From positions 414,351 to 478,350 of the forward strand of contig JAUQQC010000001.1 in assembly GCA_030550025.1 (NCBI GenBank): a DNA stretch of 64,000 nt, written 5' to 3'. Every line of letters starts with the position of its first letter. The first letter of the stretch is position 1. Source of the stretch: Acidobacteriota bacterium. GTDB lineage: Bacteria > Acidobacteriota > Blastocatellia > HR10. The notes beneath the pieces were generated by a model. It ran no database searches. It was not told the DNA's origin and worked only from the letters and a program-made list of their open reading frames with translations. The translations under genes were made by a program, and so were the position numbers. Shown here piece by piece: positions 26,406 through 29,368 of this stretch.

Positions 26406-26471
26406 GCCTAGCGGTGCGGCGATTACATGGGGGCGGCGAAGGCCATCGCTAGCTTCATCGGCTTGTCAGGC
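26406..26471 (-). other. Degenerate attC-like site
   Basis: Minus strand GCCTGAC-AAGCCGATGAAGC...GGCCTTCGCC...ATCGCCGCACC-GCTAGGC; R''/R'-like ends each with one change; between the methyltransferase stop and the ICMT pseudogene start. Confidence 0.4.
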
Positions 26472-26552
26472 AACACAGCGAGGCCGTAAGGGGACCGCGG
26501 TATGACCGATTCCACGAACCCCAGACGGGCCCCTCGGCGAGAAGAACTAGAA

Positions 26553-27572
26553 CTATGCTTTCGTTGCCTCCACGATGCCCATCAGTCTGGAAGCCGGGTA
26601 CCACGTCCCGCGGTATGTCAGCCCGGCGCGCTCGAAGAGATCGGCATATTCTTCTTCCGTGCGCTCCCGGCCGCCTGTCGCACACATCATGTGGATGTCA
26701 AACAGCTTCGCGAAGTGCGGGGTGTCCGGTCCGGGAACCACATACTCGGCGACCAAGACTCGCGCCTTCGGGGCGGCAGCCTTGTGGATGTTCGAGAGGA
26801 GCCGCACGCAGTCCGCGTCGTTCCAGTCATGCAGAATGTGCTTGAGGAGATAAACGTCGGCTCCCGGAACCTCCGTGAACATGTCGCCGGCCACATATTC
26901 GCAGCGATTCGCAACACCCATCTTCTCGGCCCAGAGCATGTCTCTCTGCTCGATGACGCTCGGCAGCTCGTACACCGTGCCCCGCAGATGAGGATGCGTT
27001 GCCAGCAGGGTACAGAGAAGATGGCCGTGCCCGCCCCCGACGTCGCAGACATGGGAGAAGCCGGAGAAGTCGTACGCCGCCAGAGCCTCCAGCACCAGTG
27101 CCGTTTCACCGCCCGAGAGACTGCTCATCGCTTCGCCGAACACGGCGCCGTAACCCGCAGCCCCGACAGCATAGACGAAGATCTGGCGGCCGAACTCACG
27201 CACAAATCCATCCGCTCCGCCCTCACGAACGATCGCACACAGGTGCTTCCAAACGGCGTAATGCTCCGGCCCTTCCTCCAGCAGTACGATGCCCCGCAGG
27301 GTCTGCGGATGATCGGCCCGCAAGGATTCGCCGGAAGGCGTGAGCGAAAACGAGCGGTCTGCATCCTCGCTCAGCAGCCCCAGGCTGGCGAGGGCGCGTA
27401 ATAGCCGATAGGCATGTGGCCGATTGAGATTGAGCTCGGACGCGACCTCATCAGCCCTCTTGGGTACAACACCTAAAGTGTCGAATATCCCCAATTTGAT
27501 CCCGGCGTAGAGAATCTGGCTACGCCATCTCCCAAAGACAATGTCCATGACCGATTGATGCGGGTCGTTCAT
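26553..27572 (-). CDS. SAM-dependent O-methyltransferase (winged-helix dimerisation domain, acetylserotonin O-methyltransferase-like)
   Basis: GIFDTLGVVPKRADEVASELNLNRPHAYRLLRALASLGLL, HVCDVGGGHGHLLCTLLATHPHLRGTVYELPSVIE, YLLKHILHDWNDADCVRLLSNI. Confidence 0.88.
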   Translation of the reverse strand: MNDPHQSVMDIVFGRWRSQILYAGIKLGIFDTLGVVPKRADEVASELNLNRPHAYRLLRALASLGLLSEDADRSFSLTPSGESLRADHPQTLRGIVLLEEGPEHYAVWKHLCAIVREGGADGFVREFGRQIFVYAVGAAGYGAVFGEAMSSLSGGETALVLEALAAYDFSGFSHVCDVGGGHGHLLCTLLATHPHLRGTVYELPSVIEQRDMLWAEKMGVANRCEYVAGDMFTEVPGADVYLLKHILHDWNDADCVRLLSNIHKAAAPKARVLVAEYVVPGPDTPHFAKLFDIHMMCATGGRERTEEEYADLFERAGLTYRGTWYPASRLMGIVEATKA

Positions 27573-27600
27573 CGCGTTCCCATTGTGGCTCTTGGATGCT

Positions 27601-27682
27601 GCCTAACGGCACCGAACTCAGCCGCTGCGAAGCGAGCGCCGCGAGCCGCGAAGCGGCTGCCGGCTGCAAGCGGGGGTTAGCC
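27601..27682 (-). other. attC-like recombination site
   Basis: Minus strand GGCTAAC...GCAGCCGCTTCGCGGC...CGGCTGAGTTCGGTGCC-GTTAGGC; 28 bp upstream of the methyltransferase start; shares TGAGyTCGGTGCCGTTAG with 28269-28332. Confidence 0.7.
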
Positions 27683-27708
27683 GGGTATCTTGAACAAAGA
27701 TCTTGAGC

Positions 27709-28212
27709 CTACACTCCCTGTGGCCAAACTAGCTTTTCAATGCGATTATCACTAGCTGTTCGTTTATTCCAACGGAATCTAAAGCTCGTCGCAGTCTGAC
27801 GACCCAACTCACGCACTACAGCATAAGGCACACGTGCAATACCCAGCAACTCAAAGGTGCACGAAAAGAATACACAAACCAAATAATCAAATGGCTCCTC
27901 TATTCTGCGGAGATCAAACGATGTGTTTTCACTGAGGTTGCTCACTTGGCGCGATTTTATCTGGTAAGTTCTTCCTTGCGCGTCTTTGGCATCCCACGCT
28001 TTCTGAATTGTACTGGGAGCAAGTTGTAAATCCAGCAGCTCCGCTACCAACCACTCAGCATAATCACTTTGCAGTGTCCGTTCCGAACGAAGTATTCCTA
28101 GCTTTGTTAAGCCCTGGCGAGCAGCAAGGTAACATTTGATGAAATATTGTGCGAGTTCCTTCTTTTCGTTGAATGTCATCGCATCACTTTGCTGTGAGAT
28201 AACCGGGGGCAT
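27709..28212 (-). CDS. Hypothetical protein, possible PD-(D/E)XK-like nuclease fold
   Basis: DYAEWLVAELLDLQLAP...AWDAKDAQGRTYQIKSRQVS...FDYLVCVFF; D-x(n)-QIK arrangement. Confidence 0.6.
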   Translation of the reverse strand: MPPVISQQSDAMTFNEKKELAQYFIKCYLAARQGLTKLGILRSERTLQSDYAEWLVAELLDLQLAPSTIQKAWDAKDAQGRTYQIKSRQVSNLSENTSFDLRRIEEPFDYLVCVFFSCTFELLGIARVPYAVVRELGRQTATSFRFRWNKRTASDNRIEKLVWPQGV

Positions 28213-28268
28213 TGTCTTGATAACTGGTAGAGTTTTCTCACCCGTGTGACCTATCCACGAATATGCCC

Positions 28269-28332
28269 AGCTAACGGCACCGAGCTCAGCCGCGCCGCCG
28301 AAGGCGGCGTCGGCTCCAGCCGCTGGTTAGGC
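28269..28332 (-). other. attC-like recombination site
   Basis: Minus strand GCCTAAC-CAGCGGCTGGA-GCCGACGCCGCC-TTCG-GCGGCGCGGC-TGAGCTCGGTGCC-GTTAGCT; imperfect hairpin with bulges, 64 bp. Confidence 0.78.
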
Positions 28333-28357
28333 GGCAGAAAACCTTGAAAAGCCATAA

Positions 28358-29290
28358 CTACCTGCGTCCCGAAAGATACTGATATGCTTCAATGAACAAT
28401 GGCTTCAATTCCGAAATATCGGGCGAATCCGGCTTGAGAGGCCGGAATACGGCCTCGTGAAAGCTGCTGTCGTACCTTTGAAGCTCCCACAGTTGGCCTC
28501 TAAAACTCCTAGCTATGTCTTCAGGCAGTTTGATCTTCAAGTTCCATGCATATGTTCCCCCCCAGGCCACACTGAATACCACCCTGTTCCCAAGCTTGAA
28601 GCCGACATAGTACTTGTTCAGATTGTACGGTAACTCCCACCCTTGCCCAGCTACCAGCCTAGCCACTGCTTCCACCGCATTACGAAACTGTGCTGTTGCT
28701 TCCTTTCCGTGCTCAGACTCATAAAAGTCCCAATCCCACTCTGCCATTACCTTGGTCACACCAACCTTGCGTGGGGGCTTGGACTCCAGGACCTCAACAA
28801 CAAGGAACTCTTCATCCTCAAAACAGTAACGCCTTACCTGCACTAAATCAACGGGATAGCCTATCTTACCCGCCATACGAGGTACAGCACTCTTGAACGA
28901 AGGGGCGATCAAGATGATGCGAATGTCCAGATTCTCCCAATCAAGCTCAATGCCCTCAGGCTTTTTCTTGCTCTCCAGCCAAATCGCCTTTATGGAGTCT
29001 GGGTTCGTTTCGGCCCAAATCGCATATCCGAGCGCTTGCGGTAGAATATCTTCACCGGCTTCCTCATTCTTGATTTCTATGATGCATACACGCGAATCTT
29101 GATCGACCCCCAACATATCAGGAATTCCCTGTTTAGCACCGGTACGAATCTGGCGATGGATGATATAGACATCGCCTCCAAGGACTTCCTGATTGTCCAG
29201 TATGTACCCCTCCAATTCTGACTCAGACGCAAACGGCTTCTCGATCAAACTGCGTGTCTGATCCCGTGACTTCCAATACAAATTTAGCAT
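28358..29290 (-). CDS. Predicted nuclease-like protein (NucS/DUF91-like PD-(D/E)XK N-terminus)
   Basis: IIHRQIRTGAKQGIPDMLGVDQDSRVCIIEIKNEEAGEDILPQALGYAIWA: PD...EIK core. Confidence 0.65.
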   Translation of the reverse strand: MLNLYWKSRDQTRSLIEKPFASESELEGYILDNQEVLGGDVYIIHRQIRTGAKQGIPDMLGVDQDSRVCIIEIKNEEAGEDILPQALGYAIWAETNPDSIKAIWLESKKKPEGIELDWENLDIRIILIAPSFKSAVPRMAGKIGYPVDLVQVRRYCFEDEEFLVVEVLESKPPRKVGVTKVMAEWDWDFYESEHGKEATAQFRNAVEAVARLVAGQGWELPYNLNKYYVGFKLGNRVVFSVAWGGTYAWNLKIKLPEDIARSFRGQLWELQRYDSSFHEAVFRPLKPDSPDISELKPLFIEAYQYLSGRR

Positions 29291-29345
29291 CTCATCACCC
29301 CAAAATTTCGAACATTGTGGTCACAAATGATGCTCAAGGACTGCC

Positions 29346-29368
29346 GCCTAACGACCAAGCTCACCTAC
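29346..29368 (-). other. attC/attI-like half site (L'-R' side)
   Basis: Minus strand GTAGGTGAGCTTGGTC-GTTAGGC, 55 bp upstream of the 28358-29290 gene; no paired R'' found. Confidence 0.55.

Follow-up and report, generated by a model that had tools for sequence, protein, structure and literature searches.

Under the usual IntegronFinder definition, a CALIN is a cluster of at least two attC sites (PMC9024848) without a neighbouring complete integron-integrase. Two of the origins proposed for CALINs are loss of the integrase and the insertion of cassettes at off-target positions through an IntI encoded elsewhere (PMC8618304); uptake of CALIN cassettes by an IntI acting in trans has also been argued for (PMC9668308). 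In the treponeme T. succinifaciens intI and the cassettes lie on the same strand (PMC3607928), a reverse layout that has also been noted for the IntIs of Spirochaetota (PMC9668308), and T. phagedenis retains remnant attC sites after the loss of intI (PMC3607928). Integrons of Acidobacteriota were known before (PMC8618304), and chromosomal attC sites of Acidobacteria have been collected (PMC8352920). Our literature search found no paper combining 'integron' and 'Blastocatellia'.

The locus described here lies in a 64,000-nucleotide stretch of DNA (G000:C23:414351-478350, denoted the window) from the 3.17-Mb genome, 98.7% complete, of a member of the Blastocatellia. Its layout comprises, in order, the 5' stub of an intI gene, a collapsed attC and an array of three cassettes that holds two complete attC and one half site (Table 1). 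At least three cassettes are thus present, two of which resemble anti-phage nucleases. From comparison of sequences, we read the locus as a degenerate, decayed chromosomal integron of the reverse type, a reading to which we assign a probability of about 0.93. The locus is a CALIN under the definition given above: it has two attC within 0.7 kb, both detected by the covariance model built here, in a genome without a complete intI. What is left of intI is a stub of 55 codons, and no match to TIGR02249 above the cut-off was found in the 3.17-Mb genome; with intI cut after ~55-60 codons, the locus lacks the functional integrase of a complete integron. It is distinctive in that a recognisable intI 5' stub is still attached and reveals how the locus arose: it is a CALIN that originated by loss of a recognisable intI. 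It shares the co-directional arrangement of intI and cassettes with the reverse integrons of Spirochaetota, whereas its host belongs to the Acidobacteriota; unlike the chromosomal integrons of that phylum, it is broken and small. The object belongs to an already known kind, is not unprecedented and leaves the general picture of integrons unchanged. Its value is that of a readable case of CALIN origin, in which the stub, the co-directional layout and less decayed orthologous cassettes can all be compared.

Table 1. Features of the locus, listed in the direction of the cassettes (positions in the window).
Feature	Position	Strand	Evidence or remark
~5.9-kb segment missing from the same intergenic site in G323, G396 and G397	~24520..30450		congener flank comparison
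Promoter-like box TTGACT-17-TAGAAT, upstream of intI stub	29623..29651	-	10/12 match
Truncated intI, ~55 codons of 5' end, MENLTVKRSV...KPKLLDQVRQAIRVRHYRNR	29391..29555	-	58% identity over 55 aa to G132 IntI, E 2.3e-11
Collapsed/half attC, start of cassette 1	29346..29386	-	R' GTTAGGC kept, central part lost
Cassette 1	28275..29351	-	from just after its own R' G to R' G of the next site
310-aa ORF, PADLOC PDC-S18 candidate defence protein with NucS-like nuclease region	28358..29290	-	PDLC04944, E 2.4e-123
attC 1, complete	28269..28332	-	covariance model 33.4 bits, E 1.6e-6; recombinogenic strand would be +
Cassette 2	27607..28274	-	bounded by two complete attC
167-aa ORF, PADLOC mREase_II-like (type II methyl-directed restriction enzyme)	27709..28212	-	PDLC03212, E 1.4e-17
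attC 2, complete, 82 nt	27601..27682	-	covariance model 22.8 bits, E 1.1e-3
Cassette 3 with its attC remnant	26431..27606	-	homologous unit in G396
339-aa SAM-dependent O-methyltransferase	26553..27572	-	Pfam Methyltransf_2, E 6.7e-49
attC 3 remnant (R'' + L'' half)	26431..26476	-	aligns with attC L107:792-857 of G396

The attC sites were analyzed with a covariance model derived from two Acidobacteriota attC and seven from class 1 integrons (of these seven, six came from plasmid loci and the aadA1 site was matched exactly in plasmid records), with no sequence from the window. The model was validated by its recovery of attC arrays that adjoin intI elsewhere in the phylum. At E ≤ 10 it yielded only two matches in the 3.17-Mb genome, attC 1 and attC 2, both at the positions proposed by the sequence-only reading, an earlier annotation of this DNA made without database searches. 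Both matches fall on the plus strand, which is the folding bottom strand expected for minus-strand cassettes, and both keep the unpaired position of the attC structure with paired L''/L' and an extrahelical base. At one end, the two clean sites have a stretch of 23 nt in common (27603-27625 and 28271-28293, 96% identical). The motif CTGAGYTCGGTNNCGTTAG, with up to three mismatches, occurs twice in the window (0.24 expected; none of 100 shuffles had two), and its 23-mer version is found at these two places in the whole genome and at no other. The inverted core ends RYYYAAC...GTTRRRY are present as GCCTAAC...GTTAGCT and GGCTAAC...GTTAGGC; in each attC, one or two outer positions deviate from the consensus or break the perfect complementarity. 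As R' reads GTTAGCT, a strict-motif scan did not pick up the window sites. When 39 attC of the order were compared, those of the window among them, changes on both sides were seen in 13 of the 21 base pairs, with a covariation score of 0.292 versus 0.02-0.06 for slid structures, in an alignment that was fitted to the covariance model and so leans towards it. In DNA folding, a check proposed earlier, attC 1 forms a strong hairpin between ORFs; attC 2, whose model score is weak, folded no better than its shuffles (z about 0), and this folding was not counted as evidence. Queried against plasmid nucleotide sequences, attC 1 returned weak, partial matches only.

Palindromic, GC-rich, intergenic sites of this kind would also be produced by a dispersed repeat of the REP/MITE type that happens to lie between genes. 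Such a repeat is refuted by the copy number, as the search for further copies found only these two in 3.17 Mb by sequence and by covariance model alike, and by the intI stub that adjoins the array; moreover, the sites delimit same-strand ORFs, and the homologues found in G396 and G371 are units made up of a gene plus a site. We consider it extremely unlikely. Even smaller is the chance that the sites are Rho-independent terminators or other RNA hairpins between the genes of an operon. The strong hairpin of attC 1 would suit them, but they leave the conserved R''/R' ends and the complementarity of the cassette ends unexplained, and an Rfam scan of the window found one tRNA and no RNA family at the attC sites; the terminator scan covered positions 29300-30460 only. 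The integron-cassette architecture recognized by the sequence-only reading is thus supported by the covariance-model matches, the lack of copies elsewhere in the genome and the intI stub.

The other two sites are remnants only, a point against the degenerate integron reading. The covariance model did not detect 26406-26471 in its scan of the window. The alignment with the cassette of G396, however, runs into an intact attC of that congener (L107:792-857; covariance model E 1e-6), which identifies 26431-26476 as the surviving R''/L'' half; the degenerate site proposed earlier is therefore genuine in this part, whereas its first 25 positions (26406-26430) have no counterpart in the congener. At the other end of the array, the half site previously placed at 29346-29368 proved to be a remnant of 41 nt with R' intact, which ranks fourth among the covariance-model matches in the window at an E value of only about 1. 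It contains TGAGCTTGGTCGTTAGGC, common to the other R' ends. No attI was recognized; the 41-nt remnant keeps one core site and is read as a collapsed attC.

The spacing of ORFs and sites agrees with that noted earlier for gene cassettes: the three ORFs start 55, 56 and 28 bp past a site and stop 25, 26 and 81 bp short of the following one. The start of cassette 1, GTTAGGCGGCAG, is complementary to its end, CTGCCGCCTAAC, at 12 of 12 positions, and the corresponding values for cassettes 2 and 3 are 10/12 and 9/12. Such complementarity is expected if a circle once closed at the cassette ends. Each cassette would formerly have been circular, with G^TTRRRY as its boundary, and IntI would have inserted it by recombining the folded bottom strand of attC.

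Cassette 1 is immediately preceded by the truncated intI, with which it is co-directional. The minus strand of the stub reads MENLTVKRSVSQGQAELPRRLSRPVKSPAPSTTPPKPKLLDQVRQAIRVRHYRNR and matches the N-terminus of G132's intact IntI, N-terminal extension included. The similarity extends over 217 bp at the DNA level (66% identity, E 4e-22), the local score is 149 whereas none of 200 shuffles exceeded 54, and tblastn with Acidobacteriota IntIs gave a cluster of matches at 29441-29391. The G132 IntI, the one most like the stub, falls within a clade of Acidobacteriota IntIs in our tree, on which the stub is too short to be placed. The minus-strand cassettes follow 3' of the stub (29555-29391), giving the reverse orientation, and in the intact G132 integron intI and cassettes are likewise on the same strand. 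The DNA similarity to intI runs to about 29380, the point at which the collapsed attC starts, so a deletion most likely fused the intI 5' end to the cassette array; the open frame stops at 29361. The proposal that the integrase had been lost is thus supported, although the loss has left a trace.

A promoter-like box precedes the stub (one found versus 0.1 expected). At the matching position above aligned intI starts and stubs, a TTGA box is present in 6/6 and a -10-like box in 5/6. This intI promoter-like box may now serve the cassettes, which may be transcribed from it as it lies directly upstream. The region 29440-29911, upstream of the stub, also resembles unlinked places in the family member G383 (C167, C181 and C54), at which no intI was seen.

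Cassettes inserted off target by an IntI encoded elsewhere would likewise form a CALIN, without any integron having existed at the site. This is one of the proposed CALIN origins (PMC8618304), and the order has attC clusters and intI pieces scattered over unlinked loci. It is nevertheless very unlikely here: the truncated intI is directly upstream and oriented as in the intact G132 integron, and three successive cassettes together with an intI 5' end and an intI-type promoter are what an integron leaves behind. We therefore retain the remains of a local integron as the preferred reading.

The integron had been called sedentary and chromosomal. Its chromosomal and degenerate character stands; the sedentary character is not supported, as the ~5.9-kb block in which it lies is missing from three of the four congeners compared. 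In these three (G323, G396 and G397; loci L077, L078 and L079) the homologues of the flanking genes are only ~160-330 bp apart; in the fourth, G398, the contig ends at the site (L081). On parsimony, the block is most simply explained as an insertion in the lineage of the strain and not as repeated loss. Inspection by eye recognized no target duplication at the block. At 30457-31713 on the minus strand, a single 418-aa ORF comprises two TetR regulators in tandem and is conserved in the genus.

These comparisons are consistent with the following history. The integron would have reached the lineage of the strain within the ~5.9-kb insertion; a deletion would then have taken most of intI, attI and part of the first attC; and the last attC would have eroded afterwards. 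The array can presumably no longer recombine unaided and would be frozen with intI dead, unless an integrase acts in trans.

The locus adds two candidate anti-phage genes, encoding PDC-S18 and the mREase-like nuclease, to the integron cargo of a little-studied group. The PADLOC model PDLC04944 covers residues 1-308 of the 310-aa ORF, assigning it to the PDC-S18 family with its predicted defence role, and the same ORF matches the endonuclease NucS model (E 9.5e-7); our literature search found no paper naming PDC-S18. The 167-aa mREase_II-like ORF is otherwise rare in the phylum, with two distant homologues of 28-31% identity in our phylum sample. The ratio dN/dS is about 0.13 for the O-methyltransferase gene relative to the G396 cassette, and dN is about 0.10 with dS saturated for the PDC-S18 gene relative to G371. 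By these substitution estimates, the two compared cassette genes remain under purifying selection, and the cassette genes are therefore probably still in use. Just past cassette 3, at 25984-26372 on the minus strand, two overlapping frames are seen, one of them phospholipid-methyltransferase-like; they probably represent one frameshifted gene. As no matching R'' end was found, they were not accepted as a fourth cassette, although they are possibly a dead one.

The cassettes behave as units, since their homologues recur with different neighbours, as judged by sequence similarity. The unit 26431-27575 is 79% identical to L107:817-1955 of G396, where the O-methyltransferase cassette is flanked by attC at 792-857 and 1972-2031 and has a different neighbour; the similarity stops near the cassette boundary. 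The PDC-S18 cassette has a counterpart in G371, of the same order, whose protein is 83% identical; an attC lies ~40 bp away from it and a degenerate intI ~3 kb away. Relatives of PDC-S18 at 83-86% identity adjoin attC-like sites with weak scores (E about 0.2-0.3). The contigs that carry them are labelled Bacillota and Ardenticatenia, but these labels are uncertain, the contigs being short and from MAGs. The PDC-S18 cassette is thus present in more than one lineage, in integrons or in settings that resemble them. A cupin-domain cassette, common to the congeners G396 (L107 2673-3116) and G397 (L080 8128-8571) and adjoining attC sites in them, is another instance of cassette sharing within the genus.

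In the order, attC model matches occur in nine of ten genomes (among G000, G132, G323, G371, G383 and G396-G400). Across these ten genomes intI fragments are seen at many unlinked places, and one full-length intact intI was seen (G132:C46). Similarly broken intI genes are present in G383, where a stub is joined directly to an attC, in G399, in G397 and at a second G132 locus. The order thus carries a widespread litter of broken integrons. A special retention of intI 5' stubs was considered and dropped, as the full IntI search also finds many C-terminal and internal fragments. It is conceivable, if rather doubtful, that in the order's reverse-type integrons the loss of the integrase by internal deletion has time and again placed the cassette array behind the intI promoter and 5' end, making a dead integron a constitutive operon of candidate defence and metabolic genes.

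In the phylum as a whole, an IntI above the family cut-off is present in 113 of 396 sampled genomes. Reverse arrays, co-directional with and downstream of intI, are seen at the IntI loci L008, L011, L012, L015, L022 and L027, which represent several families of the phylum; these families are scattered on the IntI tree, alongside families with the classical layout.
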